Source: Siphonodentalium dalli
Taxonomy: Eukaryota > Mollusca > Scaphopoda > Gadilida > Siphonodentaliidae
Direction of reading: 5' to 3'
DNA: 64,000 bases
NCBI GenBank assembly: GCA_032622095.1
Contig: CP136064.1
Span: 3,406,280 to 3,470,279, forward strand
Position numbers and translations under genes: made by a program. Below, piece by piece: positions 10,968-63,865 of the stretch. Under the pieces are notes generated by a model that was not told where the DNA came from, made no database searches, and saw only the letters and a program-made list of their open reading frames with translations. Within the stretch, counting starts at the first letter, position 1. The number at the start of each line of letters is the position of its first letter.

Positions 10968-11180
10968 CAGTAATGCTCTAAGTAATCAACTTCTTAACCA
11001 CAGCAGAATTATGGGTAACTTTTCAGGATTCAGTCGGAAATATGGCTTGTTGCCATTCATCGGAAAGCTCTCCCCGAGAGCTTTCCGATGAATGGTAACA
11101 AGCCATATTTCCGACTAAATCCTGAAAAATTACCCATAATTCTGCTGTGGTTAAGAAGTCGATTACTTAGAGCATTACTG
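10968..11180. mobile_element. Fold-back miniature element, family 4 (copy b)
   Basis: TA flanks (10966-10967, 11181-11182) and ends CAGTAATGCTCTAAGTAATC and its complement. The arms are almost perfect over the whole 213 bp; the centre is GAAAGCTCTCCCCGAGAGC. Confidence 0.95.
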
Positions 11181-11501
11181 TACTTCTAATTTAATAACCG
11201 GTAATGTAAGTGTGGTATTGGCAGTCGAGTTCCTGGCATGGGTATAATATTAAAATTTAAAGATGTCAGTTATGTCCGTGTTTCCATTCATAAACACATG
11301 CTAATGCGATAACTCAAGCATTTGTTATTTAATTCTGTTCATATTGCATGTGTAGATTTATGATGACACACCCCTCACCTGTATAGTTTTTTGCTATTGA
11401 TCAGGAATCCACCCATCTCATGTCTGCTCTCCGGTGCAATAACTCAAGTGTTCTCATCTGATCATTTTCATATTTGATGTAAATAATACCAATAATGGTA
11501 T

Positions 11502-11577
11502 GACTCCATGGGCTATTCTCTATTCGGCGATGATTCATTGACTCCATGGGCTATTCTCTATTCAGCGATGATTCATT
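11502..11577 (+). repeat. 38-bp tandem duplication abutting the array
   Basis: Two copies of a 38-bp unit starting GACTCCATGGGCTATTCTC (11502-11539 and 11540-11577), differing at one base (CGGCG or CAGCG). It ends one base before the first M element of the large array. Confidence 0.95.
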
Positions 11578-11578
11578 T

Positions 11579-12031
11579 AGGTTACACTGGTGTAAATAAG
11601 GTTCCGAGTGACATCTAGCGGATGCGGGAGGAATATATAGGAGAGAATAAAATAGACACTGGGCCCTGATTGGTCAATAGCCTTGTGTGCTTTTCACATA
11701 AAAAAATCATCACACCTCTTCCCTATGATTTCCCATAGGTAAAATAACCATTGGCACAGGAACTAACCCTTTGTAGTGAAGTTTGAATATTTTGGTGTGG
11801 TCTAAAATATGACTGTATTTTTTTATGCGGTTCTGACACTAGTTACGAAAACATAAGATTTAAAGGCGAATTCCCTGCTAGACAGACATGATTTTTTTGT
11901 GTAAAAAGTTTCCCAAAATGTCAATTTTTCAGATTTAAAGAAAATTTTGGACCCAACATTTATATTGCCAACACTATACGCTAAAACGTTAGCACTGAGG
12001 CCTATGGGAAACATTTACACCAGTGTAACCT
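11579..12031. mobile_element. M element, first of ten copies
   Basis: A 453-bp sequence bounded by 19-bp perfect inverted repeats AGGTTACACTGGTGTAAAT (left) and its complement (right). It has no coding region, so it looks like a miniature inverted-repeat transposon. The left terminal repeat is itself nearly palindromic (TTACAC TG GTGTAA). Inside the array the inverted ends extend by TTT/AAA. The tenth copy (23756-24208) is followed by TTAATCAC instead of AAAGGG. No clear target duplication is visible at the outer borders. Confidence 0.85.
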
Positions 12032-12931
12032 AAAGGGAAAAAATAGCTTTTTATCATTTTTTATTCATGGGAGTCACTTTAAAGCATTTTAATGCATTTT
12101 ACAGAGCCTGGTCTTTCAGTCCAATGAATATCTCATGCTTGGTGTGGCTATTCTTGCTGCTGATGTCTTCTTTCACTTACATCAGCCAAAAAAATAGTAA
12201 GATTTTTCATAAAAAATGCCAATTTTTCAAGGTATTTTCAAAACATTTCAAGGTGGTAATAGTCACATGATAATGCAAATGACCCATAACATGAGCATGT
12301 CAACGACACATATATCAATTGTTATAAGAACCTAATCTAACAAGTATTTTGGATTTTATAGCCAGTGATATACAGATATATATCATAAAAGTGTGTCATT
12401 TCCACTGGTGGGTATGGTCATTTGAAGGTTAATAGCACTAAAACTTGGACACATTTAAGAAAATGCTTCAGCAATTCAAAGAGAGCATATCTTTATTCAA
12501 CTAATTCAATATACACCCACATCCAGTTATCTTGGATCACCCTTGCAGACCTGAAAATGTCATATTTTATTCTTCAATGTGCTGATAAAGTCATGCGCTT
12601 GATGCTCAGCTGATCAGATCTGGACTCAATGACCTCACATCACCAGAAGTTCTCTCATGGAAAGAATATTGTACAGTCTTCCATAGCTGATCCAAGTTTG
12701 CAACACCAGACCCCTAAAACTGAGTGAAAATGGGGCCTGAACATGACTGGTGGTGGAAAACTGTGCCTTTTTGATGAATAATTTGTTAAAGGGGGTGGGG
12801 TTAAATTGTGTGTGATAAATAAAGAACCATAGGGGTGATATTGTTTTTGAACACATTTTTTCCATTGATGAGCAATTCTGAAGAAATGTAGGGAGTTACA
12901 ATTATTCCGCGAAAAAGCGGGGTATCGCTTT
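12032..12931. repeat. S spacer, first of nine copies
   Basis: This 900-bp spacer begins AAAGGGAAAAAATAGC and ends with a small hairpin, CCGCGAAAAAGCGG, then GGTATCGCTTT. It includes GATAAATAAAGAACC, which contains a polyadenylation-like AATAAA. No domain was recognised in any frame, and no promoter or RNA motif is convincing. Confidence 0.8.
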
Positions 12932-15900: not shown

Positions 15901-18900
15901 GTTACGAAAACATAAGATTTAAAGGCGAATTCCCTGCTAGACAGACATGATTTTTTTGTGTAAAAAGTTTCCCAAAATGTCAATTTTTCAGATTTAAAGA
16001 AAATTTTGGACCCAACATTTATATTGCCAACACTATACGCTAAAACGTTAGCACTGAGGCCTATGGGAAACATTTACACCAGTGTAACCTAAAGGGAAAA
16101 AATAGCTTTTTATCATTTTTTATTCATGGGAGTCACTTTAAAGCATTTTAATGCATTTTACAGAGCCTGGTCTTTCAGTCCAATGAATATCTCATGCTTG
16201 GTGTGGCTATTCTTGCTGCTGATGTCTTCTTTCACTTACATCAGCCAAAAAAATAGTAAGATTTTTCATAAAAAATGCCAATTTTTCAAGGTATTTTCAA
16301 AACATTTCAAGGTGGTAATAGTCACATGATAATGCAAATGACCCATAACATGAGCATGTCAACGACACATATATCAATTGTTATAAGAACCTAATCTAAC
16401 AAGTATTTTGGATTTTATAGCCAGTGATATACAGATATATATCATAAAAGTGTGTCATTTCCACTGGTGGGTATGGTCATTTGAAGGTTAATAGCACTAA
16501 AACTTGGACACATTTAAGAAAATGCTTCAGCAATTCAAAGAGAGCATATCTTTATTCAACTAATTCAATATACACCCACATCCAGTTATCTTGGATCACC
16601 CTTGCAGACCTGAAAATGTCATATTTTATTCTTCAATGTGCTGATAAAGTCATGCGCTTGATGCTCAGCTGATCAGATCTGGACTCAATGACCTCACATC
16701 ACCAGAAGTTCTCTCATGGAAAGAATATTGTACAGTCTTCCATAGCTGATCCAAGTTTGCAACACCAGACCCCTAAAACTGAGTGAAAATGGGGCCTGAA
16801 CATGACTGGTGGTGGAAAACTGTGCCTTTTTGATGAATAATTTGTTAAAGGGGGTGGGGTTAAATTGTGTGTGATAAATAAAGAACCATAGGGGTGATAT
16901 TGTTTTTGAACACATTTTTTCCATTGATGAGCAATTCTGAAGAAATGTAGGGAGTTACAATTATTCCGCGAAAAAGCGGGGTATCGCTTTAGGTTACACT
17001 GGTGTAAATAAGGTTCCGAGTGACATCTAGCGGATGCGGGAGGAATATATAGGAGAGAATAAAATAGACACTGGGCCCTGATTGGTCAATAGCCTTGTGT
17101 GCTTTTCACATAAAAAAATCATCACACCTCTTCCCTATGATTTCCCATAGGTAAAATAACCATTGGCACAGGAACTAACCCTTTGTAGTGAAGTTTGAAT
17201 ATTTTGGTGTGGTCTAAAATATGACTGTATTTTTTTATGCGGTTCTGACACTAGTTACGAAAACATAAGATTTAAAGGCGAATTCCCTGCTAGACAGACA
17301 TGATTTTTTTGTGTAAAAAGTTTCCCAAAATGTCAATTTTTCAGATTTAAAGAAAATTTTGGACCCAACATTTATATTGCCAACACTATACGCTAAAACG
17401 TTAGCACTGAGGCCTATGGGAAACATTTACACCAGTGTAACCTAAAGGGAAAAAATAGCTTTTTATCATTTTTTATTCATGGGAGTCACTTTAAAGCATT
17501 TTAATGCATTTTACAGAGCCTGGTCTTTCAGTCCAATGAATATCTCATGCTTGGTGTGGCTATTCTTGCTGCTGATGTCTTCTTTCACTTACATCAGCCA
17601 AAAAAATAGTAAGATTTTTCATAAAAAATGCCAATTTTTCAAGGTATTTTCAAAACATTTCAAGGTGGTAATAGTCACATGATAATGCAAATGACCCATA
17701 ACATGAGCATGTCAACGACACATATATCAATTGTTATAAGAACCTAATCTAACAAGTATTTTGGATTTTATAGCCAGTGATATACAGATATATATCATAA
17801 AAGTGTGTCATTTCCACTGGTGGGTATGGTCATTTGAAGGTTAATAGCACTAAAACTTGGACACATTTAAGAAAATGCTTCAGCAATTCAAAGAGAGCAT
17901 ATCTTTATTCAACTAATTCAATATACACCCACATTCAGTTATCTTGGATCACCCTTGCAGACCTGAAAATGTCATATTTTATTCTTCAATGTGCTGATAA
18001 AGTCATGCGCTTGATGCTCAGCTGATCAGATCTGGACTCAATGACCTCACATCACCAGAAGTTCTCTCATGGAAAGAATATTGTACAGTCTTCCATAGCT
18101 GATCCAAGTTTGCAACACCAGACCCCTAAAACTGAGTGAAAATGGGGCCTGAACATGACTGGTGGTGGAAAACTGTGCCTTTTTGATGAATAATTTGTTA
18201 AAGGGGGTGGGGTTAAATTGTGTGTGATAAATAAAGAACCATAGGGGTGATATTGTTTTTGAACACATTTTTTCCATTGATGAGCAATTCTGAAGAAATG
18301 TAGGGAGTTACAATTATTCCGCGAAAAAGCGGGGTATCGCTTTAGGTTACACTGGTGTAAATAAGGTTCCGAGTGACATCTAGCGGATGCGGGAGGAATA
18401 TATAGGAGAGAATAAAATAGACACTGGGCCCTGATTGGTCAATAGCCTTGTGTGCTTTTCACATAAAAAAATCATCACACCTCTTCCCTATGATTTCCCA
18501 TAGGTAAAATAACCATTGGCACAGGAACTAACCCTTTGTAGTGAAGTTTGAATATTTTGGTGTGGTCTAAAATATGACTGTATTTTTTTATGCGGTTCTG
18601 ACACTAGTTACGAAAACATAAGATTTAAAGGCGAATTCCCTGCTAGACAGACATGATTTTTTTGTGTAAAAAGTTTCCCAAAATGTCAATTTTTCAGATT
18701 TAAAGAAAATTTTGGACCCAACATTTATATTGCCAACACTATACGCTAAAACGTTAGCACTGAGGCCTATGGGAAACATTTACACCAGTGTAACCTAAAG
18801 GGAAAAAATAGCTTTTTATCATTTTTTATTCATGGGAGTCACTTTAAAGCATTTTAATGCATTTTACAGAGCCTGGTCTTTCAGTCCAATGAATATCTCA

Positions 18901-21900
18901 TGCTTGGTGTGGCTATTCTTGCTGCTGATGTCTTCTTTCACTTACATCAGCCAAAAAAATAGTAAGATTTTTCATAAAAAATGCCAATTTTTCAAGGTAT
19001 TTTCAAAACATTTCAAGGTGGTAATAGTCACATGATAATGCAAATGACCCATAACATGAGCATGTCAACGACACATATATCAATTGTTATAAGAACCTAA
19101 TCTAACAAGTATTTTGGATTTTATAGCCAGTGATATACAGATATATATCATAAAAGTGTGTCATTTCCACTGGTGGGTATGGTCATTTGAAGGTTAATAG
19201 CACTAAAACTTGGACACATTTAAGAAAATGCTTCAGCAATTCAAAGAGAGCATATCTTTATTCAACTAATTCAATATACACCCACATCCAGTTATCTTGG
19301 ATCACCCTTGCAGACCTGAAAATGTCATATTTTATTCTTCAATGTGCTGATAAAGTCATGCGCTTGATGCTCAGCTGATCAGATCTGGACTCAATGACCT
19401 CACATCACCAGAAGTTCTCTCATGGAAAGAATATTGTACAGTCTTCCATAGCTGATCCAAGTTTGCAACACCAGACCCCTAAAACTGAGTGAAAATGGGG
19501 CCTGAACATGACTGGTGGTGGAAAACTGTGCCTTTTTGATGAATAATTTGTTAAAGGGGGTGGGGTTAAATTGTGTGTGATAAATAAAGAACCATAGGGG
19601 TGATATTGTTTTTGAACACATTTTTTCCATTGATGAGCAATTCTGAAGAAATGTAGGGAGTTACAATTATTCCGCGAAAAAGCGGGGTATCGCTTTAGGT
19701 TACACTGGTGTAAATAAGGTTCCGAGTGACATCTAGCGGATGCGGGAGGAATATATAGGAGAGAATAAAATAGACACTGGGCCCTGATTGGTCAATAGCC
19801 TTGTGTGCTTTTCACATAAAAAAATCATCACACCTCTTCCCTATGATTTCCCATAGGTAAAATAACCATTGGCACAGGAACTAACCCTTTGTAGTGAAGT
19901 TTGAATATTTTGGTGTGGTCTAAAATATGACTGTATTTTTTTATGCGGTTCTGACACTAGTTACGAAAACATAAGATTTAAAGGCGAATTCCCTGCTAGA
20001 CAGACATGATTTTTTTGTGTAAAAAGTTTCCCAAAATGTCAATTTTTCAGATTTAAAGAAAATTTTGGACCCAACATTTATATTGCCAACACTATACGCT
20101 AAAACGTTAGCACTGAGGCCTATGGGAAACATTTACACCAGTGTAACCTAAAGGGAAAAAATAGCTTTTTATCATTTTTTATTCATGGGAGTCACTTTAA
20201 AGCATTTTAATGCATTTTACAGAGCCTGGTCTTTCAGTCCAATGAATATCTCATGCTTGGTGTGGCTATTCTTGCTGCTGATGTCTTCTTTCACTTACAT
20301 CAGCCAAAAAAATAGTAAGATTTTTCATAAAAAATGCCAATTTTTCAAGGTATTTTCAAAACATTTCAAGGTGGTAATAGTCACATGATAATGCAAATGA
20401 CCCATAACATGAGCATGTCAACGACACATATATCAATTGTTATAAGAACCTAATCTAACAAGTATTTTGGATTTTATAGCCAGTGATATACAGATATATA
20501 TCATAAAAGTGTGTCATTTCCACTGGTGGGTATGGTCATTTGAAGGTTAATAGCACTAAAACTTGGACACATTTAAGAAAATGCTTCAGCAATTCAAAGA
20601 GAGCATATCTTTATTCAACTAATTCAATATACACCCACATTCAGTTATCTTGGATCACCCTTGCAGACCTGAAAATGTCATATTTTATTCTTCAATGTGC
20701 TGATAAAGTCATGCGCTTGATGCTCAGCTGATCAGATCTGGACTCAATGACCTCACATCACCAGAAGTTCTCTCATGGAAAGAATATTGTACAGTCTTCC
20801 ATAGCTGATCCAAGTTTGCAACACCAGACCCCTAAAACTGAGTGAAAATGGGGCCTGAACATGACTGGTGGTGGAAAACTGTGCCTTTTTGATGAATAAT
20901 TTGTTAAAGGGGGTGGGGTTAAATTGTGTGTGATAAATAAAGAACCATAGGGGTGATATTGTTTTTGAACACATTTTTTCCATTGATGAGCAATTCTGAA
21001 GAAATGTAGGGAGTTACAATTATTCCGCGAAAAAGCGGGGTATCGCTTTAGGTTACACTGGTGTAAATAAGGTTCCGAGTGACATCTAGCGGATGCGGGA
21101 GGAATATATAGGAGAGAATAAAATAGACACTGGGCCCTGATTGGTCAATAGCCTTGTGTGCTTTTCACATAAAAAAATCATCACACCTCTTCCCTATGAT
21201 TTCCCATAGGTAAAATAACCATTGGCACAGGAACTAACCCTTTGTAGTGAAGTTTGAATATTTTGGTGTGGTCTAAAATATGACTGTATTTTTTTATGCG
21301 GTTCTGACACTAGTTACGAAAACATAAGATTTAAAGGCGAATTCCCTGCTAGACAGACATGATTTTTTTGTGTAAAAAGTTTCCCAAAATGTCAATTTTT
21401 CAGATTTAAAGAAAATTTTGGACCCAACATTTATATTGCCAACACTATACGCTAAAACGTTAGCACTGAGGCCTATGGGAAACATTTACACCAGTGTAAC
21501 CTAAAGGGAAAAAATAGCTTTTTATCATTTTTTATTCATGGGAGTCACTTTAAAGCATTTTAATGCATTTTACAGAGCCTGGTCTTTCAGTCCAATGAAT
21601 ATCTCATGCTTGGTGTGGCTATTCTTGCTGCTGATGTCTTCTTTCACTTACATCAGCCAAAAAAATAGTAAGATTTTTCATAAAAAATGCCAATTTTTCA
21701 AGGTATTTTCAAAACATTTCAAGGTGGTAATAGTCACATGATAATGCAAATGACCCATAACATGAGCATGTCAACGACACATATATCAATTGTTATAAGA
21801 ACCTAATCTAACAAGTATTTTGGATTTTATAGCCAGTGATATACAGATATATATCATAAAAGTGTGTCATTTCCACTGGTGGGTATGGTCATTTGAAGGT

Positions 21901-24326
21901 TAATAGCACTAAAACTTGGACACATTTAAGAAAATGCTTCAGCAATTCAAAGAGAGCATATCTTTATTCAACTAATTCAATATACACCCACATCCAGTTA
22001 TCTTGGATCACCCTTGCAGACCTGAAAATGTCATATTTTATTCTTCAATGTGCTGATAAAGTCATGCGCTTGATGCTCAGCTGATCAGATCTGGACTCAA
22101 TGACCTCACATCACCAGAAGTTCTCTCATGGAAAGAATATTGTACAGTCTTCCATAGCTGATCCAAGTTTGCAACACCAGACCCCTAAAACTGAGTGAAA
22201 ATGGGGCCTGAACATGACTGGTGGTGGAAAACTGTGCCTTTTTGATGAATAATTTGTTAAAGGGGGTGGGGTTAAATTGTGTGTGATAAATAAAGAACCA
22301 TAGGGGTGATATTGTTTTTGAACACATTTTTTCCATTGATGAGCAATTCTGAAGAAATGTAGGGAGTTACAATTATTCCGCGAAAAAGCGGGGTATCGCT
22401 TTAGGTTACACTGGTGTAAATAAGGTTCCGAGTGACATCTAGCGGATGCGGGAGGAATATATAGGAGAGAATAAAATAGACACTGGGCCCTGATTGGTCA
22501 ATAGCCTTGTGTGCTTTTCACATAAAAAAATCATCACACCTCTTCCCTATGATTTCCCATAGGTAAAATAACCATTGGCACAGGAACTAACCCTTTGTAG
22601 TGAAGTTTGAATATTTTGGTGTGGTCTAAAATATGACTGTATTTTTTTATGCGGTTCTGACACTAGTTACGAAAACATAAGATTTAAAGGCGAATTCCCT
22701 GCTAGACAGACATGATTTTTTTGTGTAAAAAGTTTCCCAAAATGTCAATTTTTCAGATTTAAAGAAAATTTTGGACCCAACATTTATATTGCCAACACTA
22801 TACGCTAAAACGTTAGCACTGAGGCCTATGGGAAACATTTACACCAGTGTAACCTAAAGGGAAAAAATAGCTTTTTATCATTTTTTATTCATGGGAGTCA
22901 CTTTAAAGCATTTTAATGCATTTTACAGAGCCTGGTCTTTCAGTCCAATGAATATCTCATGCTTGGTGTGGCTATTCTTGCTGCTGATGTCTTCTTTCAC
23001 TTACATCAGCCAAAAAAATAGTAAGATTTTTCATAAAAAATGCCAATTTTTCAAGGTATTTTCAAAACATTTCAAGGTGGTAATAGTCACATGATAATGC
23101 AAATGACCCATAACATGAGCATGTCAACGACACATATATCAATTGTTATAAGAACCTAATCTAACAAGTATTTTGGATTTTATAGCCAGTGATATACAGA
23201 TATATATCATAAAAGTGTGTCATTTCCACTGGTGGGTATGGTCATTTGAAGGTTAATAGCACTAAAACTTGGACACATTTAAGAAAATGCTTCAGCAATT
23301 CAAAGAGAGCATATCTTTATTCAACTAATTCAATATACACCCACATTCAGTTATCTTGGATCACCCTTGCAGACCTGAAAATGTCATATTTTATTCTTCA
23401 ATGTGCTGATAAAGTCATGCGCTTGATGCTCAGCTGATCAGATCTGGACTCAATGACCTCACATCACCAGAAGTTCTCTCATGGAAAGAATATTGTACAG
23501 TCTTCCATAGCTGATCCAAGTTTGCAACACCAGACCCCTAAAACTGAGTGAAAATGGGGCCTGAACATGACTGGTGGTGGAAAACTGTGCCTTTTTGATG
23601 AATAATTTGTTAAAGGGGGTGGGGTTAAATTGTGTGTGATAAATAAAGAACCATAGGGGTGATATTGTTTTTGAACACATTTTTTCCATTGATGAGCAAT
23701 TCTGAAGAAATGTAGGGAGTTACAATTATTCCGCGAAAAAGCGGGGTATCGCTTTAGGTTACACTGGTGTAAATAAGGTTCCGAGTGACATCTAGCGGAT
23801 GCGGGAGGAATATATAGGAGAGAATAAAATAGACACTGGGCCCTGATTGGTCAATAGCCTTGTGTGCTTTTCACATAAAAAAATCATCACACCTCTTCCC
23901 TATGATTTCCCATAGGTAAAATAACCATTGGCACAGGAACTAACCCTTTGTAGTGAAGTTTGAATATTTTGGTGTGGTCTAAAATATGACTGTATTTTTT
24001 TATGCGGTTCTGACACTAGTTACGAAAACATAAGATTTAAAGGCGAATTCCCTGCTAGACAGACATGATTTTTTTGTGTAAAAAGTTTCCCAAAATGTCA
24101 ATTTTTCAGATTTAAAGAAAATTTTGGACCCAACATTTATATTGCCAACACTATACGCTAAAACGTTAGCACTGAGGCCTATGGGAAACATTTACACCAG
24201 TGTAACCTTTAATCACAAATTGATTATCCTGGAATTTCATTCAGATTTCTCTGTGATGCATTGTTATTGAATAAGTGAGAATTCTGATGTTATCAGAAAT
24301 GTGTCTGTCCTGCATGCACAAATATA

Positions 24327-24540
24327 CAGTAATGCCCTAAATAATCGACTCCTTAACAACAGCAGAATTATGGGTAATTTTTCAGGATTTAGTCGGAAAT
24401 ACGGCTTGTTGCCATTCATCGGAAAGCTCTCAGTGAGAGCTTTCCGATGAATGGCAAAAAGCCATATTTTCGACTAAATCCTGAAAAGTTACCCATAATT
24501 CTGCTGTGGTTTAAGGAGTCGATTATTTAGGGCATTACTG
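24327..24540. mobile_element. Fold-back miniature element, family 4 (copy c)
   Basis: TA-flanked, with ends CAGTAATGCCCTAAATAATCG and complement; arms nearly perfect. It lies 118 bp right of the end of the large array. Confidence 0.93.
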
Positions 24541-24639
24541 TAGATGCTCATTATAGCTACCTGTATTTGGGATGATCAACTCAGTTTATTGATACGTACA
24601 GAAAACTTTTGATTTTAAGTTGTGTACTCTCCGGTGCCT

Positions 24640-24786: not shown

Positions 24787-24788
24787 TA

Positions 24789-24968
24789 CAGTAATGCTCT
24801 AAGTAATCGACCTCTTAACCAAAGCAGAATTATGGGTAACTTTTCAGGATTTAGTCGGAAATATGGCTTGTTGCCATTCATCAGAAAGTTCTAAATTTCC
24901 GACTAAATCCTGAAAAGTTACCCATAATTCTGCTTTGGTTAAGAGGTCGATTACTTAGAGCATTACTG
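24789..24968. mobile_element. Fold-back miniature element, family 4 (copy d)
   Basis: TA-flanked family 4 copy with a shortened centre: the GGAAAGCTCT loop region is partly deleted, giving CATCAGAAAGTTCTAAATTTC. Confidence 0.92.
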
Positions 24969-25006
24969 TACATGAGAGTAGTTGACATCTGCACATGGTA
25001 TAATAT

Positions 25007-26110
25007 TTAACCCTTTCATGATGAGAGCTTTGCTGGTGCAGCATTAAAGAAGTCTGCTGTCACTAAATAACTTACATTTACCTCCCATAAGGAGCTTCGC
25101 ATACTACTACATGTATATAAAAGAGTGCACTGGCTTACAAGGTCATGGTAATTAGTGTTAGGCCAATGTATTCTCTTATACATCTATATCCGAGGCTCCC
25201 TATGTGAGTGTCGCATATATAAAAGAATGCATTGGTTTACAAGGTCAAGGTAAATATTGTTAGGCCAGTGCATTCTCTTATACATGAATATGTGAGGCTC
25301 CCTATGTGAGTGTCGCATATATAAGAGAATGCATTGGTTTACAACGTCAAGGTAAATATTGTTAGGCCAGTGCATTCTCTTATACATGAATATGTGAGGC
25401 TCCCTATGTGAGTGTCGCATATATAAGAGAATGCATTGGTTTACAAGGTCAAGGTAAATATTGTTAGGCCAGTGCATTCTCTTATACATGAATATGTGAG
25501 GCTCCCTATGTGAGTGTCGCATATAAAAGAGAATGCATTGGTTTACAAGGTCAAGGTAAATATTGTTAGGCAAATGCATTCTCTTATATATGCAAGGTTC
25601 CCTATGGGAGAATCACATATATAAGAGAACGCATTGGTTTACAAGGTCAAGATAAATATTATTATGGCAATGCATTCTCTTATACATCTATATCCGAGGC
25701 TCCCTATGTGAGTGTCGCATATATAAGAGAATGCTTTGGTTTACAAGGTCATGGTAATTAGTTTTAGACCAATGTATTCTCTTATACATGTATATGTGAG
25801 GCTCCCTATGTGAGTGTCGCATATATAAGAGAATGCATTGGTTTACAAGGTCAAGGTAAATATTGTTAGGCCAGTGCATTCTCTTATACATGAATATGTG
25901 AGGCTCCCTATGTGAGTGTCGCATATATAAGAGAATGCATTGGTTTACAAGGTCAAGGTAAATATTGTTAGGCAAATGCATTCTCTTATATATGCAAGGT
26001 TCCCTATGGGAGAATCACATATATAAGAGAATGCATTGGTTTACAAGGTCAAGGTAAATATTATTATGGCAATGCATTCTCTTATATATGCGAAGTTCCC
26101 TATGAGATCA
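25007..26110. mobile_element. Family 3 element with hairpin module amplified about tenfold
   Basis: The left end is TTAA (25007-25010) followed by CCCTTTCATGATGAGAGC, a family 3 terminus. Inside are about ten head-to-tail units of roughly 100 bp, each a diverged hairpin: GCATTCTCTTATACATG ... CTCCCTATGTGAGTGTCGC ... AGAGAATGCATTGG, joined by TTTACAAGGTCAAGGTAAATA. Units begin near 25165, 25268, 25369, 25468, 25572, 25670, 25771, 25873, 25975 and 26075. No family 3 right end is found; the element stops inside the last hairpin at about 26110. The open frames here on both strands are products of the repeat. Confidence 0.88.
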
Positions 26111-26387
26111 TGTTCATATTTCAACTGTTTACTTTTTGGTGTCAATCAGTCGATTAGTTTGGAAAAGGTTGTCCCCATCAACTCATGTCATTACTTTGTT
26201 GTATTCGATATTGATTCGATCTTATAACTCATTTAATGTTTTACGTCGGATCATTTTCATATTTCATGTCCACCTTTATGATGACACACCCATCAACTGT
26301 ATTGTTTTGATTTAGATCAGTTAATGGGTTTGGAAATATAAATCCATTCCAAATCATAACAACACGAGTAAGTGCCAGTATTGAGTA

Positions 26388-26581
26388 CAGTAATGCTCTA
26401 ATTAATCGACCCCTTAACCACAGCAGAATTATGGGTAACTTTTCAGGATTTAGTCGGAAATATGGCTTGTTGCCATTCATTGGAAAGCTCTCAGTGCAAC
26501 AAGACATATTTCCGACTAAATCCTGAAAAGTTACCCATAATTCTGCTGTGGTTAAGGGGTCGATTATTTAGGGCATTACTG
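26388..26581. mobile_element. Fold-back miniature element, family 4 (copy e)
   Basis: TA-flanked family 4 copy. The right arm has lost part of the centre (CTCTCAGTGCAACAAG). Confidence 0.92.
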
Positions 26582-26796
26582 TAATCTCACTGGCTACAAC
26601 ACCATGTTCAAAAACACCATGTCACCGTTCACAGTGGCGCTTTGTTTGACCCACATACAGATGTATGTGAGTAAAAGGGGGATGCCCAATGACACTTGAT
26701 TCCACGTCTTGCCCACCGGAAGTTGATACAAGCTAATGATAGGCAGAGCACCCTGCTGTATAGGCAGTTTCAGAATCAGTCAGAAAGTTGACATAA

Positions 26797-32689: not shown

Positions 32690-32949
32690 AGACATTTTCA
32701 GTGATAAATGGACTGAAAACAGTCTTCAAAATCTTAAGTGTGGGAGTGTAGTCGCTTTAATGCAATGTACCTCCGTGGTCTTCTTCCTGATAAGATTTTA
32801 AATGAGACCCCTCTCAGGTTAAGAATTAATCAGTGAATGATATGTCTGTTTTGTTATGGTAATGTTATGCACTAACTGCAAATGACGCATATTATCCATT
32901 CAAATGCCCATGATATTAAGAATGTTCATAGGCTAGATATGGAGATGTA

Positions 32950-33162
32950 CAGTAATGCTCTAAATAATCAACTCCTTAACCACAGCAGAATTATGGGTAA
33001 CTTTTCAGGATTTAGTCGGAAATATGGCTTGTTGCCATTCATCGACAAGCCCTCAGTGAGAGCTTTCCGATGAATGGCAACAAGCCATATTTCCGACAAA
33101 ATCCTGAAAAATTACCCATAATTCTGCTGTGGTTATGGAGTCGATTATTTAGGGCATTACTG
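32950..33162. mobile_element. Fold-back miniature element, family 4 (copy f)
   Basis: TA-flanked, ends CAGTAATGCTCTAAATAATC and complement, arms near perfect over 213 bp. Confidence 0.94.
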
Positions 33163-33239
33163 TATTCGCCTGACAACATGCAGCCTTTGCTTGGTTTCAT
33201 AATTCAATTTATAATGATAATACTCTTTATTATAGCAGA

Positions 33240-41299: not shown

Positions 41300-41330
41300 T
41301 CAATTAGGCGACAACTAAATTAACGAGGCC
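41300..41330 (+). repeat. Terminal-repeat-like sequence next to the transposase fragment
   Basis: AATTAGGCGACAACTAAATTAACGAGG parallels the left end of the nested element at 42254-42278 (TTAAGCGACCTG ... TTAACGAGG), in the same orientation. It may be the left end of an internally deleted pogo copy. Confidence 0.5.
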
Positions 41331-41845
41331 ATTATCGAAGAAGGACAAATGTTGCGGTTATTCCAGGAGGCATGACATCCATACTACAGCCGTTGGATGT
41401 ATGTTTAAATAAGCCATTCAAGAATGCAATCAGGAATAAATGGACTGAGTGGATGTGCGATGAAAAAGACAAAGTATTCACTAAAGCAGGAAACCTTAAC
41501 CGACCTGACTTACCGTTAGTGGCAAAATGGGTGAAGCAGTCATGGGACGAATTAGACACTGAACTTATTGTGAAATCTTTCAAAAAGTGTTGTATTTCGA
41601 ATGCTATGGATGGTTCCGAGGATGACGAACTGTATAGTGAATATGTGTTGGAGAAGGATGCGAAAGTGAGCGAGAATGTTGAGATAGAGTGTGGTGATGT
41701 TAACGGTGTGAGTGATGATGATGATGATGATGATGATGTTTATGATGATCCGAAAGGTTTTTGTGATGTTTTTGACGATAATTTGTCGCACGCTGAGTGG
41801 TGGAAATTGTATATGGAGGCAGACAGTGAAGACGATGATGAGTGA
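41327..41845 (+). pseudogene. C-terminal fragment of a pogo/Tigger-type DDE transposase
   Basis: The frame is closed by a stop at about 41324-41326 and encodes, before the first ATG at 41372, TNVAVIPGG and then MTSILQPLDVCLNKPFK. That IPGG.TS.LQPLD..LNKPFK block is diagnostic of the end of the DDE catalytic domain in pogo/Tigger/jerky-like transposases. It is followed by a conserved SFKKC.ISNAMDG.EDD block and an acidic tail with eight consecutive Asp encoded by a GAT microsatellite (41715-41740), ending at TGA 41844. About 170 residues remain, so the DNA-binding domain and the first catalytic Asp residues are missing: 5'-truncated and not active as it stands. Just upstream, 41300-41330 resembles the inverted end of the nested element, suggesting an internal deletion. 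Confidence 0.88.
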
Positions 41846-42240: not shown

Positions 42241-44679
42241 CAGCACTGCCTAAATTAAGCGACCTGTTTTAACGAGGTTACATGCGTTAATACCGCGGTG
42301 CAATACCGCGACATACCGCCGATTCGCGGTTGCACTACCGCGGTACCACCGTAGTGTTCACGGTACCACCACACTACCAGCGGTAACGAATTATTGTAGC
42401 GCGGTGGCACGCGGTAATGCACCGCACAAACGCGGTGACATTACCGCTAAGCGGTAGCATTTTTTTTAACGATGTTAATGACGGAATTCGATGGCTGACC
42501 GCCAATCTTCCAAAATAGGACGGCCGTTCTCACGATCTCCGTCCATGATTGTGTACCGTGAAGTGTATTATTAAAATATTGAAATGCCCATTATAACGGG
42601 CTTCCAGATTAAGTAAAGGTAAGTATAAGTTACTTTGAGAAAGTAATTTTTCAATTAATGTGAATATTAAAATATTACTATAACATTTCTAGTCTCGTTT
42701 TATTGCCAAAAATTCCCATAAATGACACTATTTGTAATCAGTGTTGGTTATCGGGAAGGGAACAAATGATTTCGTCCATTTTAGACAGCTCGATAAATCC
42801 CGTATCTACAGTTTATATCAATGTTCAGATGTACGTGATCCCTAAATTGAATGATAACGACACTATTTAAATAGTCCCCAGAATAAATATCGTTATTAAC
42901 TTTATTGACATTCATTAACTGCAAATCACAAACACCATTTGTTCCTATAACGGGAATTATTGTCTTAGCAATAAAAGACACAAAGTGGAACTCCCGTATA
43001 TCCAGGAAAAAAACACATTCTGCGCAAAAGCACGTGTCACTGATTACGTCATACTGCAGCTGGCAGACTTTGTTAATATAGGGCACGGGGCACTTAAATT
43101 AAGATGTCGTCATGTTTTTTTATAACTGGCCTCAATGGGTGAAATAAATATTTGTGTTTTGTTGATTATTTTTGTTGATTATTTGTGCTATTAGTAAAAC
43201 TAAACACGTGACGCGCGAATGGCTGTTTTGGACACTTGTATTTCCATTACTTCAATGCGTCCGTTTGGCTTACATAATGCTCGCAGAAGGTAGTTCAGAT
43301 ATTTATCGATCTATTTTGGTATTGCGAATACTATTATGTGCAAACCGCCACGTGACTTTAAACAGACAAGTCTCATTCGATCTTTAAAATGTTGTGCAAG
43401 TAATAGCTGTTTATAAATATTTGTCGCTAAAAGTGAGACAAACGCTCTTTATTGCTACCGTATCGGGAATAAACTAACAAGGACTAAAACACACCGAATT
43501 CGATCACTTGAAATAATTATGTTACAATGTTAACCTCTGTATATAACCAAACAAACATATTTAGAGGTCAACTTTCCAACACCATGCATGCCCGACACGC
43601 ACTCGTGAGCTCAATGAATGTTCACGTAACAAAATCAAAGACTGATTTGACAACGTTGTGTCTTTCAATGTTTGGTGTTTTGCGTGTGTCTTTTGTCGCG
43701 CACATTGGTGATGATAACAACTTTACTTTGCTGCATGACATGTGCCATGCTTTCTTAGTTATACAATTTATTCCCACTGACAAGAAATCTTCAGGCGCAA
43801 ATGTTTGTAAATTGCTTTACTATTTCACGCATGCGTACAATCATACGTCTTGGCGACAATATACTATTTACGCGCCGATTATGTTTGGCATATGAACAAA
43901 ACTATAGATTTGAACGAATATGAATATTTCTGAAATGATCGCCGCCCTGGCCTCTAAGACTAAAATCGGACTCAGTGTTACTAATGCACTGTCCCCGCTG
44001 GGTTCGACCAAATTCAGATAAATGGAGGATTTAATTTTCCCATTTTATAAGAAGTTGAGATTTCGGAAACACAAACAAAACAACAAATTCCGCATGAGTG
44101 GAAACCGATATAGGAATCGGGTGCGTAAATCATTTGACGATATGTAAGATAGATGCTAACAACAAAACTTACTCCACGGTGTTTTGCGTAATCCAGTCGC
44201 CGTAAGCAACTATAGCTGAGTTCAAAAACCGCTGATGTGATGTACGTGTACATTTGTAATATGTTACATGTAAACCCGACATGTTCATACATGTATGTAA
44301 TCCGATTGCATTATTATTAATTTATATTCATTACGTACATGTGTATACATAATTACGTGCAGCTTACAGGTATTCATTCAATACAAAAGTTATTCATAAT
44401 CATTTACCTACCGTGTGACGCCTTGTTTCAGTCGTGTTCTCTCCGCGGTGGAGGGCCGTTAGCGGTAATTTGAACGCGGTTACGAAATAAATAACGCGGT
44501 GTATGGCGGTAACGAACACCAATAACGCGGTAACCAACGGTAAAAATACCGTACCAGTACCGCGGGTCAACCGCCCCCGTTGCGGTACAGAATGATAACC
44601 GCGGTAGTTTGGTGGTATCACCGCGGTAAGTACCGGCCCATAACCTCGTTAAACAAGTCGCTTACTGAGAGCATAGCTG
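42241..44679. mobile_element. Nested TA-flanked element with GCGGTA subterminal arrays
   Basis: TA flanks at 42239-42240 and 44680-44681. The inverted ends begin CAGCACTGCC (left) and CAGCTATGCT (right, read inward) and share a near-identical inner part GCGAC(C/T)TGTTT(T)AACGAGGTTA. Next to each end is a zone of about 180 bp packed with GCGGTA / TACCGC motifs and the palindrome ACCGCGGT (42285-42465 and 44455-44640). The 2-kb middle has no recognisable protein. CAG ends and TA flanks suggest a pogo/Tigger-type non-autonomous element. An alternative reading uses the inner TTAA (42269-42272 and 44649-44652) as target. Confidence 0.65.
42466..44454. other. Interior of the nested element, no gene recognised
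   Basis: Frames of up to about 120 codons occur (for example 43527-43895 + and 42781-43086 -) but show no domain, composition or splice context that would support a gene. HTH-like or DDE motifs were not seen. Confidence 0.45.
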
Positions 44680-46559: not shown

Positions 46560-46659
46560 NNNNNNNNNNNNNNNNNNNNNNNNNNNNNNNNNNNNNNNNN
46601 NNNNNNNNNNNNNNNNNNNNNNNNNNNNNNNNNNNNNNNNNNNNNNNNNNNNNNNNNNN
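46560..46659. other. Assembly gap (100 N)
   Basis: Exactly 100 N, the usual placeholder for a gap of unknown size. It lies downstream of the acyltransferase exon in its direction of transcription. Confidence 0.99.
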
Positions 46660-47091
46660 ATGAAGTATATTGAGAGGGGGATGGCTTAGTCCAACATACT
46701 GTCTTCCTGCCACCCCTGTAAAAGAGTAATAAACATTAGATGCCTATATGATAGACATGTAAAGACCAGGTATATATGGGTAATGTGTAGGCTTCAAGAT
46801 TGTGTACGAAGGGTTATACTACTCAATATAAGCGAATGCATTATCATTAATTTCAATTCTGGATGATGAACAGTATAATGATGGACGAGGATACGGGATA
46901 CTTTTCCAGTATAATTGCTTTTTTGTAATGTCTTTAATATCTTAAATTTAATATCAGGTTGTGGATTGGGGACAATCGCGGCATCCTTCGTTTTTGCACT
47001 TGATGTTGTCAGAGTACGAGGTTATAATGCTTTTCGACTATCGGGCTACGCACATTATGCGAGCTAGATATACTAATATTACTGTACCCAC

Positions 47092-47581
47092 CTGTTAACA
47101 TGAAATACTCCCTATATAACGGGAACTGAAAATGACCAGCAAGTACGAGCAGTGACGAACGAATTCCAGGAAATAATTTGTCGAATCCGCTTCCGAAAGT
47201 AGCAAAGTGACAAAAGGCACCGACGCTCAAAACGCCGTGCGGGTGGTATCCCAGGATATAGTTCCTTTCCGGATCCAATTCCGACGTTTTAAAAAGCTTC
47301 ATCGGGAAATAATCACAGAAGTGTTTCCAGAATTTCCAGTGTTTTACTGAAAGAACTGGCCGACCCCCATGGCTCGAGGTTCCACGGTCACTATAGTACC
47401 AGACAGCGTAGATGAGAACCAGATAGTAATACTGAGTGCATAGGAGCACGTATAGAAAGAGGAACAGGGATCCGAAACCAAGGAATAGGAAAACGTAAGA
47501 GTAGTGGAATGCACCGAGCGTCTGAATCCGCCTTTCCAGTGGGATGTTCAAGGGAGCGAAGTCTATTCCTAACAGCTTCAT
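47092..47581 (-). CDS. DGAT2/MOGAT-family acyltransferase, first coding exon(s), partial
   Basis: Diacylglycerol or monoacylglycerol O-acyltransferase of the DGAT2 family, which makes di- or triacylglycerol from acyl-CoA at the endoplasmic reticulum. The exon encodes about 163 residues from MKLLGIDFAP. A hydrophobic hairpin at about 26-62 would anchor it in the membrane. The conserved YFP motif is at 91-93, the catalytic-site HPHG motif at 113-116, and FPGIR at 137-141. The family has about 330-390 residues, so only the N-terminal half is here. The exon ends at a donor, ACAG|GTGGGTAC, at 47092/47091. An acceptor (TTTTGTTTTCAG ending 47665) lies upstream, so the exon is probably 47664-47092. 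The frame is open back to that acceptor, but the chosen ATG (47581-47579, A at -3) matches family N-termini. Downstream exons should lie at lower coordinates and none was found. Whether it is DGAT2 or MOGAT cannot be told from this half. Confidence 0.9.
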
Positions 47582-47664
47582 TGTCGCTTGTGGCCGCTGA
47601 TTTCTCAGGTGATGTAGATGGGTCGGTGAAGTTAGGCCCACATGAATCTTGTGGGAAGCAATCA

Positions 47665-48534
47665 CTGAAAACAAAAGAAACTAGAATGCACTCAGAGAGA
47701 TGCCAACGTGCGCAAAAATGTAATAAAAAATAATTAAAAAAATAATTTCACTGTATTTTACTTAATTTATTTAATTTAATGCTAGCAAAAAAAAACAATT
47801 ACCATTTCTCATTTCATCACAGATAAAAGGCAACATACAATTTTTTTGTTGTGTGTGTGTGTGTCGTTTTTGGTGACGTCATGGAGTGAAACGGAGCAGG
47901 GTGACACCAACCTACGAATCTGTCTGATCGCCATACTGTTGCGCGAGCGCACGTAAACATATATAAGATGGTTGTCTTTCTGAAGGCACTGATACAGGCG
48001 CAATAGACATTTCCACTTTCATTCGGCATTCTGACTCTCAAATCGGACCTCACTGAGCGGTCCATTGTATCACAGAAGACGAAAGTCTACCCCTGTGTTA
48101 ATTTCGCAAGCTATATTATCTAAACTCCAGATCAATCTACCCTAGTGCTTTGTTATAAATCAGCGGCCATATTGGACATAATCTTGCATGGTGTCTATAC
48201 ATCTTGTCCGCACAACCCCTTTCTCACATTAACATTGCTTCATGTTTGAGGGAGATATAATGAAAGCAATTGGGGTGTGACGTTATATGCTGTATACTCA
48301 ATTCATTTCTTTATTCTCATTATCGCCTGTACACACATAGGCATGGAGAGCGAAGTATTTACAATATACATTGTAAATATTATTTATAATAGCACTATAT
48401 GGTAGAGTCTGCTTAAGATAGGTCAGCTAGTTGAGTTGCCAAGCATTGTACTCACAACACAACTGTATGTACAGCACATGTGAAGTTCCCCACCGCATGG
48501 AATACTATTAGGCCCATGAACTTCATATAAATGG
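47665..48534. other. Upstream region of the acyltransferase exon
   Basis: Intron or promoter DNA on the minus strand. It contains a (TG)n tract near 47851-47863 and the palindrome TGACGTCA at 47874-47881. No further exon was identified. Confidence 0.45.
47874..47881. promoter_or_regulatory. CRE-like palindrome
   Basis: TGACGTCA is the full cyclic-AMP response element consensus, 293 bp upstream of the acyltransferase ATG. An 8-mer can occur by chance, so its role is only suggested. Confidence 0.35.
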
Positions 48535-48935
48535 CGATTCGAAAGCGACAAAATGTGCGCCGCCAGTCGCGCGCCGACAGCTACAGAAGCGACAAAATGT
48601 TCGCCACAATGTAGCACACTGACGCTTGTGTTGTTTTCGATGCTCGCCAAATTATCGCATGTTTTGGCGCCTCAAAAGTGCCAGAAGCGACAAAATATGC
48701 GCTATAATGTCGCTTTCGGTGTGCGCCAAAACATTCGAAATCTCGCATGTTTTGGCACGCGCCGAAAGCAACATAACATGCGACATTAGTGGAACATTTT
48801 GTCGCTTTCGGCGAAACATGTGACATTTCACCTGTTTTGGCGCGCGCCGAAAGAGACAAATCTTGAAACAATATTTCGCACATTTCGTTTATGTAGCTTT
48901 CGGCGCGCGTCTAATGTCGCTTTTGTCGCTTCTGG
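48535..48935. repeat. Palindrome-rich element (GCGACAAAATGT / TTGGCGCGCGCC)
   Basis: About 400 bp containing repeated GCGACAAAATGT, GCGCCAAAACAT, TTTTGGCGCGCGCCGAAAG and GTCGCTTTCGG in both orientations. The left border ATTCGAAAGCGACAAAATG is inverted at the right border (GTCGCTTTTGTCGCTTCTGG). It is GC-richer than its surroundings. Probably a miniature element with dense subterminal dyads. The frames it contains are by-products. Confidence 0.6.
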
Positions 48936-53080: not shown

Positions 53081-53618
53081 CAGTGGTCTGAAGCACGATA
53101 AGCTAAATCCGTGAACTCCTCAACTTTGACACAGCGTGTAAACATTGGAGAACAGTATCAGATACGGTCCAACTGTCACGGTTGATCATGTCATGAATAA
53201 ATTTCACGATTTAAATGACTTTGTGAGCGATATTGCTTTGCATCGTGTACAATTATGAAATTTCTCCTGGGTAATTAATTCAATGTATAATGCCACATCG
53301 GCTCACAAAAGTTACAGAAAAAAATTAAATTTCGAGTTGGGCACCTACAGTGAAGTATATTATTAAGGAGCAGATAATAGCTAAGATATATATTCCCCGA
53401 TACGAGTTATCTTTTCGACTTTATAAGGTTCCCTGTCAAAACTTTAAAAAGTTGCCAGGTTTTTGTACTGGTGGAATATGACCTCCACGGGCGTCAGTCA
53501 GAGCAGAGATTCAGTGGTCTGAATGCACGATAAGCTTAATCCATGAACTCCTCAACACACAGCCGGTGAACATTGGAGAACACTCAGAACAGTATCAGAT
53601 GCGGTCCAACTGTCACGG
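53081..53618 (+). repeat. About 101-107-bp direct duplication flanking a fold-back half
   Basis: 53081-53181 and 53512-53618 are copies of one sequence (CAGTGGTCTGAA(T)GCACGATA ... CATTGGAGAACA ... GGTCCAACTGTCACGG). The second has two small insertions. Between them is 53182-53511, which matches one arm plus centre of the fold-back element at 61218-61688. Confidence 0.9.
53182..53511 (+). mobile_element. Half copy of a fold-back element
   Basis: Shares TCGAGTTGGG, ATATATTCCCCGA, TTATAAGGTTCCCTGTCAAA and GTACTGGTGGAATATGA with the right arm of 61218-61688. Its own left arm is not recognisable. Confidence 0.75.
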
Positions 53619-60027: not shown

Positions 60028-61217
60028 TTACAAATTATATTTTTCATTTCTTCTATTTGTAATTGGCATAGCTTATCACAAACCAAAAGCAACGACAATA
60101 AACGAAATTGAAATTGCAACTACACCTTTTACCGGACTCGGGGTCGCATTACAACTTTTAATGCGTCCCAAAACAACCGGATTTTTTTTTATCTATAAAT
60201 AAAACGGCCAGCGAACCATAGCTATCTAGAATCTCTAGATTAGTATACACCGGGGCACAGGCCCCTGGGGAAATTTTTCTAAAATACCAATAAAGACTAT
60301 ACCAGTGTAAAGGTTCCAATCATCGATTTTGGCTAAAACCACACCAACTATCAAAACCCTACAAATTCTCGAAATCGATAATTGCAACCAAAATATCCCC
60401 CAGTATGTCTTATTGGCATAAAATTCCCTTTCATTTGACATATAACTTGGCGAAATCGAACGAAGCGAAGTCGAGATATGATATAGGAAAGTACCGAATT
60501 CTACCGAACAAATCGGCTCGTCAGTCTGCCTGTCCGCCGAGCGCCCTTTGACCTCGTAATAAAATCAATATTTTCGAGAAATAAATTGTAGCGAACGTGT
60601 ATTTAACCGCGATGTCATAACCTATAAATGCTCACATATATTCTACGTCATTCCGAAGCCACCAATACCTATTTTATTTCACTCGGTGTGTTTGTGTTCG
60701 ATATTATACACTTTATTCATCAAAGGAATTTCAGAAACTAGACACGTCTGGACTTGCAGTAAATATTGAAACCGAAAGTAAGACAAGAGTGTACGGGTCA
60801 AGGTCACGTGGAATTCCCAAAATTTTAGGATTGTATCAAAGCAAATTCAAATTATTTAACTATACTTTCAAGTGCATTTCTGTTTTTAAATCTGATAAAT
60901 GTGTTGGAACAGAGAAAATTAATAATTCATGTGTTTCTTCAATACTCTATCGGAGATCTATGCATATTTATTTTTTCAAGCCAACATTTGTGAACTTTAA
61001 TCTCGAATCTCGATTATTGTCAATCAATCAGCAAGTCACTCAAAATTTATTGCAAGTCACAGACGTTAATCGAAGTTAATCCGTTGATTGGCTACTTTGC
61101 ATGGATTACACGATGTCGATCGTAGAAAATCACAGTGTCTTGATATGCTACGTCATTGATCATGCGAGAAAATTTCATAGAATTCTGTGCAGCACAGGTT
61201 ACACTAGATCATACCAT
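60028..61217. other. Intergenic DNA with one fold-back relative
   Basis: 60258-60330 matches one arm of 51845-51926 (CCCCTGGGG, TAAAATACCAATAAAGACTA). Otherwise no gene is recognised. Confidence 0.45.
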
Positions 61218-61688
61218 GAATCTCTATTACATGGATAACGAGAGATCATATTCCACCAGTGCAATAATCTTGGAACTGTTTTGACAGGGAACCTTATAAA
61301 GTCGATAAAATAACCCGGGGAATATATTTCTTAGTTATTATCTGTCCCTTAATAATGTTCTTCGGTGAAGGTCCCAACTCGAAATTCCATCCTTTTCTCT
61401 GACTTTTGTGAGCCGATATCACAATAAACATTGAATTACCCAGGAAAAAATCCATAATCGTAAGCGACGCAACGCCAAATTGCTCACAAATTCACTTAAA
61501 TCGTGAAATTTCGAGTTGGGACCGTCACATACAGTGAAATACATTATTAAGGAAAAGATAATAACTAAGAAATATATTCCCCGAATTATTTTCAATTTTA
61601 TAAGGTTCCCTGTCAAAATTTCAAAAAGTTGAACGGTTTTGTACTGGTGGAATATGATCTCTACGGGCATTAGCCATAGTAGAGATTC
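61218..61688. mobile_element. Fold-back element, about 470 bp
   Basis: Inverted arms: GAATCTCTATTACATGG ... TCATATTCCACCAGTGCA ... TTTGACAGGGAACCTTATAA on the left, and TTATAAGGTTCCCTGTCAAA ... TGGTGGAATATGA ... GTAGAGATTC on the right. The centre has AATTACCCAGGAAAAAATCC. A half copy is at 53182-53511. Confidence 0.85.
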
Positions 61689-61990
61689 GTGGCATGATCT
61701 ATAATGTTACAATTGCGATCGTAACCAAAGACTGATATGAGTTGTCTTTATGAACAATAGGCCTGCAGGTAACAACTCATACAAATTTACATGCATGCAT
61801 CGCGATTCATTCTTTACAATTGGATTCACAATCCGCTTTGTCACATATTTGGGACATCGCTTCTCAATAACTTGTAAACTCACCAGCCTCGTACAAGATT
61901 TAGAAAATATTTCAACCAAGATTTGAAATTTTTTTATTAGCTATATGTATATGGTATATGTATATGGGAGGCCAAATTCACATTTAATAA

Positions 61991-62141
61991 TGAATTGCGC
62001 TTAAGCGCAATTGATTGCGCTTAAGCGCAAATACCACATATTGTGCTTAAGCGCAAATAGGGCATTTACGTTTAAGCGTAATTAATTACGCTTAAGTGCA
62101 ATTAATTGCGCTTAAGCGCAATCAATTGCGCTTAAGCATAA
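61991..62141. repeat. Left array of seven CTTAAG-centred palindromes
   Basis: Spacings between centres are 20, 26, 25, 20, 20 and 20 bp. The unit is TTGCGCTTAAGCGCAA with single-base variants. Confidence 0.93.
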
Positions 62142-62436
62142 TTGTGACTACTATCTAACCTACCCATAAACTATTAGCATGACCTGGTGTATCACCTAGC
62201 AACACAAGATGAGCATTGGGCTAATTTTGACCTTTACTCAACAGTCAACTGTGAGTATGTGTTCAACAAGGAGAATCCCTAATTACATATTATCAGCATC
62301 CCTCTATCCAAAGAATTGATGTCGCCTTCCCGGAACTCTTAGTAATTTTTTGTATGATGTTTTTAATGTATTTTTGCACAGATTTTAGCCTATACATGCA
62401 TGCGGTGTCACTGCATGAGGGCTTTCTTACCTCATA

Positions 62437-62646
62437 CAGTAATGCTCTAATTAATCGACTTCTTAACCACCGCAGAATTATGGGTAACGTTTCAGGATTT
62501 AGTCGGAAATATGGCTTGTTGCCATTCATCGAAAAGCTCTCGAGAGCTTTCCAATGAATGGCAACAAGCCATATTTCCGACTAAATCCTGAAAAGTTATC
62601 CATAATTCTGCTGTGGTTAAGGAGTCGATTAATTAGAGCATTACTG
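62437..62646. mobile_element. Fold-back miniature element, family 4 (copy g), nested
   Basis: TA-flanked, ends CAGTAATGCTCTAATTAATC and complement, arms near perfect. Confidence 0.94.
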
Positions 62647-63172
62647 TATGGTTTACTTATTGACTTAAATCAGGGGGAAAAAACCCTATTTTCATATTAT
62701 CAGCAGCCCTGTCCAAAAAATGGTGTGTAATCACTGGAGCTTTGGTGTCTCAGTCCTGGAGCTCTAGTTTTTCTTATTATATCAGCATCTCTTGCACAAA
62801 TCTATAGTATTTCCATGATCATATAGTGTGAATGTGGTGTCACAGAGGGCTTGCTTCCCTCACGGGCATATGGTGTGCCTGTATACTCGAAAATTTAAGA
62901 AAATCAATGTCGCCCCGACTAATACAGAAAGTAATGCTATTGCAATTAGCCCCAACTAATATATACCGAAGATAATATAATGCTATCACGAGTCGCTCCA
63001 ACTAAAACAGAAGGTGATACTATTGCGAGTCAGCCATTTTGATAAAGAAGTTGGGCTAGCTCCCTACCCAATCAAACCAATGAAACCAAGAGGTGACATG
63101 TCAATAGGAGTTAATGCTAAGTTATGGAGAAACCTATTTATTCACCAGGGGTGTTTTGTTACATATAACCAT

Positions 63173-63318
63173 GAATTGCGCTTAAGCGCAAATAATTACT
63201 TGCGCTTAAGCGCAATGATTGCGCGTAAGAGCAATTGATTTCGCTTAAGCGTAATTATTTGCGCTTAAGCGCCATTAATTGCGCTTAAGCGTAATTGATT
63301 GCGCTTAAGCACAATTAA
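63173..63318. repeat. Right array of seven CTTAAG-centred palindromes
   Basis: Spacings are 24, 19, 20, 20, 20 and 20 bp. One copy reads GCGCGTAAGAGC and is partly degraded. Confidence 0.93.
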
Positions 63319-63346
63319 TTATTAAATGTGAATTTGGCCTCCCATA

Positions 63347-63865
63347 TATGTACATGTTCCTACCATATACCATGCATACTGGTACCCTGACAAGGTCCAA
63401 AAGAGGAAAACGGTCAGATGCGCATATCCTACCATGATGCATGAGCACAAATCGCGATACGTATCACATCATAGATAGCAGGGGTGTATCATTGCAGCCC
63501 TAGGTCCAATTAGTATAGATACACAGATAATAAGTCCAATCTTATTATGGATAGGGTTCACTGAATTAAACTTTTAATTGGAACTCACACAATATTACAG
63601 TGATATTAGTACATATTCATTATGTTCACTGTATCGCGATAGTCCGAATGTATTGTGGGAACTGAGTCGTGATAGATATCCTATATACATGACAAATATC
63701 GCAATGTGTGCGCTGTATGATTATCTCATTCACTCCCAACTTTCTGAGGATTTCGGAATAAATTAACGTGTACCGACTTCCCTGGCGATATTGCCAGTTT
63801 TTATAGTTTTTTTTTTGTATCATGAATTCACGATGGTAGCAAACAGATCCAAGACAGCATCTGCA
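63347..63865. other. Intergenic DNA
   Basis: No gene or classified repeat recognised. Confidence 0.4.

Follow-up and report, generated by a model that had tools for sequence, protein, structure and literature searches.

A putative non-autonomous DNA transposon of Siphonodentalium dalli with IS3EU-like ends and seven palindromes inside each inverted end

We describe a 1,384-bp segment of the scaphopod Siphonodentalium dalli (contig CP136064.1), located at 61963-63346 of the 64,000-nucleotide stretch of DNA analysed here (the window). Its best reading is a mobile element, mobility being read from the structure of one copy. With a probability of roughly 0.6 the segment is a non-autonomous transposon, probably of the IS3EU/GingerRoot kind, in which two arrays of palindromes would offer a transposase provided in trans several sites to bind, much as the subterminal sites of Spm/En, Galileo or Bari do. 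It probably represents a new non-autonomous family, IS3EU-like by its ends, and its arrangement is a known kind in unusually regular form. The features are listed in Table 1.

Table 1. Features of the palindrome element, in positions of the window
Feature	Position	Strand	Remarks
Left target site duplication	61957-61962	+	TATGTA, 6 bp
Non-autonomous DNA transposon copy	61963-63346	.	TATGGGAGGCC...GGCCTCCCATA; IS3EU-type reading
Alternative limits of the element	61965-63344; 61966-63343		with TA; with AT
Left outer terminal inverted repeat	61963-61991	+	29 bp, no mismatch
Left array, 7 palindromes	61995-62141	.	61995-62010, 62015-62030, 62041-62056, 62066-62081, 62086-62101, 62106-62121, 62126-62141
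Interior without recognised gene	62142-63175	.	many stops in six-frame reading
Nested palindromic MITE	62437-62646	.	210 bp, CAGTAATGC...GCATTACTG, TA on both sides; later insertion
Right array, 7 palindromes	63176-63314	.	63176-63191, 63200-63215, 63219-63234, 63239-63254, 63259-63274, 63279-63294, 63299-63314
Right outer terminal inverted repeat	63318-63346	-	
Right target site duplication	63347-63352	+	TATGTA, 6 bp

The unit of both arrays is a 16-bp palindrome, TTGCGCTTAAGCGCAA and its variants, present fourteen times. An earlier reading made from the letters of this DNA (the sequence-only reading) had placed seven palindromes just inside each inverted end, and this is what we found, in arrays of 147 bp (left) and 139 bp (right). 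The palindrome centres lie after positions 62002, 62022, 62048, 62073, 62093, 62113 and 62133 in the left array and after 63183, 63207, 63226, 63246, 63266, 63286 and 63306 in the right one; the unit centred after 63226 is without TTAA and was positioned by eye and afterwards checked. Counted from the outer to the inner side, the centres are 20, 26, 25, 20, 20 and 20 bp apart on the left and 20, 20, 20, 20, 19 and 24 bp apart on the right. The 20-bp spacing that had been claimed is thus exact in 8 of 12 cases, but the others measure 19, 24, 25 and 26 bp. Likewise, the CTTAAG core said to be kept by the variants is found in 12 of the 14 units and not in all (TTAA in 13). Five units are perfect palindromes, and on both sides the first centre is 40 bp from the end.

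Chance origin of the arrays is excluded. The core CGCTTAAGCG, with up to one mismatch, has 13 matches in the window and all 13 lie inside the arrays, and none of 100 dinucleotide shuffles reached this number (mean 0.42, largest 2); the fourteenth unit, TTGCGCGTAAGAGCAA, has two core mismatches. The arrays are present at both ends and their spacing pattern differs between left and right. They are neither a product of one-sided slippage, which the sequence-only reading had named as one of its refutations, nor a strict lattice. The observed/expected ratio of CpG was 1.95 and 2.28 in the arrays, 0.49 in the interior and 0.76 in the window, and 23 of 28 palindrome CpGs are kept; this richness is largely a consequence of the motif and proves nothing. 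The sequence at 63161-63197, on the inner edge of the right array, resembles that at 61980-62016, on the outer edge of the left array and in the same orientation (86% over 37 nt); it looks as though end-like sequence might once have bordered the right array on both sides.

In the mechanism that we propose, a transposase made elsewhere would bind the palindromes in dimeric form, with several dimers at each end, and would cut at the outer repeat, whose ~29 bp would be the cleavage ends. Each 16-bp palindrome may consist of two TTRCGCTT half-sites in inverted order, to be read by a dimeric DNA-binding domain of the transposase or of an accessory protein from an autonomous relative. By analogy, the presence of several dimers per end could give a short degenerate site enough specificity for a large genome and could also help to join the ends. 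The binding-site reading is suggested by the equal number of palindromes (7+7) and the equal 40-bp distance to the first centre at each end. The 20-bp period would come from amplification of a 20-bp unit in which the palindrome was kept and the gap was free to vary, a step that is partly borne out by the arrays. All 14 palindromes are 16 bp long, the gaps measure 3 to 10 bp, and the changes in length fall in the gaps with none inside the palindromes. All four off-period spacings arise between palindromes (0.0016 under a simple after-the-fact model).

A rather improbable alternative is that no protein reads the arrays and that they are passive. In that case slippage or unequal exchange would have expanded a 20-bp palindromic unit within a long inverted repeat of foldback type, and inversion or gene conversion would have carried a copy to the opposite end. 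Tandem Repeats Finder gave a period of 20 in both arrays, and foldback elements with tandem repeats inside their inverted repeats have been described, for example Tetris. The eight 4-bp spacers, taken alone, are nearly as alike as the palindromes (27/32 versus 209/224 cells matching the consensus; p 0.087, not significant). With all units used, however, the palindrome columns showed higher conservation than the two columns flanking them on either side (209/224 versus 43/56; Fisher p 0.00076), and in the left-right alignment the palindromes agreed at 100/112 positions and the spacers at 20/29 (p 0.015), one 4-bp gap having been set at a palindrome edge by the program where placement in the spacer was equally possible. 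These tests treat related units as independent, so the p-values are too small. The constant length of the palindromes, the confinement of all four off-period spacings to the gaps, and the existence of an array on each side, with equal distance from end to first centre, also argue against passive repeats. The divergence between outer repeat and array was marginal (p 0.046). Seven of 15 palindrome changes affect the third base counted inwards from an edge, a single position when the halves are mirrored, and six of these are G>A or C>T. On balance, the sequence favours the arrays as putative binding sites.

By direct reading, TATGGGAGGCCAAATTCACATTTAATA and its mirror form the two inverted ends bounding the element, which begins TATGG and finishes CCATA. 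That the inverted ends are real was confirmed, 61961-61990 being identical to the mirror end at 30 of 30 bases; counted from 61963, the repeat is unbroken for 29 bp and, after one mismatch, goes on into the arrays. The exact 6-bp TATGTA on either side is, in this one copy, the longest duplication at symmetric boundaries. The TA-rich flanks also allow the shorter exact duplications TA, AT, TATA and ATAT at symmetric boundaries near 61961-61966. The chance of a 6-bp match at a fixed boundary is ~0.0004 under a local model and 0.0009 from the 40-bp flanks.

As a control set we used all TAYGG...CCRTA pairs 150-4,000 bp apart in the window (n=1,121). An exact 6-bp duplication was seen in two of them, the present element and one pair sharing its right end, and four shifted controls gave 1, 1, 1 and 0. 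Mirrored end bases numbered 20/20 in the element versus 9/20 in the second pair, which arises from a tandem copy of TATATGTATATGG in the left flank. This two-copy tandem TATATGTATATGG (61942-61967) crosses the left boundary and blurs the target duplication, and because of it flank matches come more easily on the left. The sequence-only reading had called the element TA-flanked. That is probably wrong: the TA is one of several possible duplications, and with TATGTA fitting 61963-63346 it more probably forms the end of the element itself.

In a published account (PMC10045372), TA..TA termini are a constant character of complete IS3EU families and 6-bp duplications a usual one, and GingerRoot mostly shares both; fungal IS3EU families have the ends TAYGG..CCRTA and inverted repeats longer than 30 bp (PMC12730594). 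The present element has the termini TATGGGAGG...CCTCCCATA, an exact TATGTA on both sides, seen in one copy and with shorter duplications fitting other boundaries, and TATGG..CCATA ends with 29 bp unbroken before the repeat runs on into the arrays. Judged by its ends and duplication, it may with good probability be assigned to the IS3EU/GingerRoot kind. It differs from these families in being without a transposase, and a palindrome array is not mentioned for IS3EU in those parts of the two accounts that we drew on (PMC10045372, PMC12730594).

It is unlikely that the same mechanism belongs to another superfamily, either Tc1/mariner with a TA duplication or ISL2EU with an AT duplication and GG ends. 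A TA duplication does fit the limits 61965-63344 and an AT duplication the limits 61966-63343, among other readings, and under the latter GG stands beside the AT duplication as in ISL2EU (PHIS superfamily), whose ends usually begin with GG, whose inverted repeats measure 6-259 bp and whose transposase carries HTH and THAP domains (PMC4482050). Against both, the exact 6-bp duplication is the longer one and, together with the TA..TA ends, agrees with IS3EU, and the target described for ISL2EU in that account is A-AT-T, whereas here it is T-AT-A (flanks T-AT and AT-A). Further candidates were rejected. PIF/Harbinger has a 3-bp TWA duplication, and no exact 3-bp duplication occurs at symmetric boundaries within 61955-61984; piggyBac and Kolobok have a TTAA duplication, and neither end here has TTAA; CACTA/EnSpm has CACTA ends, and the ends here are TATGGGAGG.

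Three ORFs of at least 60 aa overlap the interior, and two of the three gave no match in Pfam, which was searched with ten ORFs (eight from the window's 25 stop-to-stop ORFs with 120 aa or more, and two short ones from the element). A MITE has been inserted into the interior; therefore the outer element is older than this insertion. Relatives of the MITE lie in the window at 4020-4189 with 4461-4494, 10964-11182, 24324-24542, 24787-24970, 26386-26583 and 32948-33165, and a pattern made for it had no match in viral contigs.

No second copy or autonomous partner was found in viral, prokaryote, phage and plasmid sequences, a result that says little about animal genomes. Patterns of the outer repeat and of paired palindromes had no match in viral contigs, nor had a paired-palindrome pattern in contigs of prokaryote genomes, and blastn of 61950-62200 gave no match in phages and plasmids. 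A looser end-plus-core pattern matched 8 loci in prokaryote genome contigs and 36 in viral contigs; blastn at E 0.1 aligned none of the 44 loci with the element, the outer repeat is absent from all of them within 3 mismatches, and two of them (L002 and L007) hold 2 and 3 core-like matches. The exact 16-mer was found in one viral contig, where it stands alone in the stretch examined. An element with this palindrome was not found in the open-licence literature among the matches listed, as judged by titles and the openings of abstracts, and the papers listed for words of its sequence were, by title, not about transposons. Within the window, Pfam identified a DDE_1 fragment (41324-41842); there is nothing to tie it to the element, because the end word GGGAGGCCAAATTCAC occurs nowhere else in the window within 3 mismatches. 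A cluster of short inverted motifs like ACCGCGGTA lies ~450 bp downstream of this fragment (42292-42457), of which no second copy was found in the window.

Repeated sites near transposon ends have experimentally tested parallels in Galileo, Spm/En, Herves and Bari. Several sites for the THAP domain have been shown in the ends of Galileo and are thought to give binding specificity (PMC3688188); TNPA recognises the subterminal repeats of Spm/En, and in soybean Tgmt* such repeats form palindromes, 2 on the left and 12 on the right (PMC2613891). Herves is described with repeated CG/AATTCAT sites. Each end of Bari has three 18-nt direct repeats (PMC8151067, PMC4877112). Like the CACTA elements Spm/En and Tgmt*, the present element has short direct and inverted motifs just inside its ends that form palindromes (PMC2613891), but CACTA elements have CACTA ends and a 3-bp duplication, and the Tgmt* borders are asymmetric, in contrast to the 7+7 near-perfect palindromes with a period of mostly 20 bp. 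Galileo and Foldback-like elements share inverted repeats containing internal repeats, those of Galileo being much longer (0.5-1.2 kb) and its sites sparser (PMC3688188). Tc1/mariner elements such as Sleeping Beauty and Bari share several binding sites within ~250 bp of each end, but Bari has its three direct repeats where the present element has seven palindromes (PMC8151067, PMC4877112), and a TA duplication is only one possible reading here. The sequence-only reading took this for a mobile element whose subterminal palindromes are bound by a dimeric protein. This is still the best reading, corrected as to the terminal TA and weakened in its helical argument; the cooperative binding that it also suggested is conjectural.

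That argument held that bound proteins would line up on nearly one face of the helix. It is true of neighbours only, since two turns of 10.5 bp take 21 bp, not 20, and the site angles spread; the resultant length was 0.34 (left) and 0.53 (right) at 10.5 bp per turn and 0.68 and 0.79 at 10.0. The helical-face argument is therefore weak. We consider it quite unlikely that the arrays are a lattice of 20-bp steps, on which a dimeric transposase or accessory protein of an IS3EU-type element would load at one palindrome, spread in the manner of iterons or parS, and pair the ends before cleavage. If this were true, it would be the means of DNA recognition in a superfamily in which the transposase core has no HHCC domain like that of retroviral integrases; IS3EU transposases are described as being without the HHCC motif upstream of the core (PMC10045372).

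Two structural explanations are very improbable. Single-strand hairpins might matter for excision or replication, and as single-stranded DNA the arrays folded much more strongly than their shuffled versions (z -10.2 and -10.3, with none of 200 shuffles equalling either array), but such folding is inevitable for any palindrome array, and with 12 of 112 arm pairs broken, the one compensated change is no excess over the permutation mean of 0.72. The arrays might instead hold a nucleosome or another host protein, with TTAA about every 10 bp, G+C between, and lengths of 147 and 139 bp close to one nucleosome; their periodicity ranks 6 (right) and 53 (left) of 12,771 windows at 10.0 bp and 4 and 34 at 10.2 bp, but only 340 and 3,374 at 10.5 bp, the strongest period of the left array is 9.25 bp, and a 10-bp period is automatic from a 20-bp palindromic repeat.

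The window around the element contains many inverted-repeat pairs and few long ORFs. Just upstream of the palindrome element, at 61205-61701, lies a long element built as an imperfect inverted repeat (TAGATCAT...ATGATCTA); it has a relative at 53199-53517. A dense inverted and direct array of AAGCGACAAAATGT and TGTCGCTTTCGGCG motifs (48543-48935) is perhaps another element with repeated sites. A palindromic motif like GCCAATGCATTCTCTTATA occurs at 25114-26107 and other places, in a 102-bp tandem array as well as scattered among inverted-repeat elements; the array is perhaps a satellite born from a transposon. Self-comparison revealed, at 11576-24208, roughly nine 1,353-bp units arranged head to tail and more than 99.9% alike; they are either a young tandem array or an assembly effect. 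A run of 100 N at 46560-46659 is an assembly gap. A diacylglycerol acyltransferase fragment lies on the minus strand at 47012-47680; with the DDE_1 fragment, the inverted-repeat pairs and the scarcity of long ORFs, it suggests that the DNA is eukaryotic and probably from an animal.

MITE-like elements often give little hint of their mover. Here the ends, the duplication and fourteen near-identical palindromes together form a signature with which an autonomous partner and its DNA-binding domain may be searched for, and the palindrome is a candidate recognition site for an IS3EU-type transposase. The element would also allow a test of whether repeated subterminal sites confer transposase specificity, as has been proposed for Galileo and Foldback-like elements (PMC3688188).
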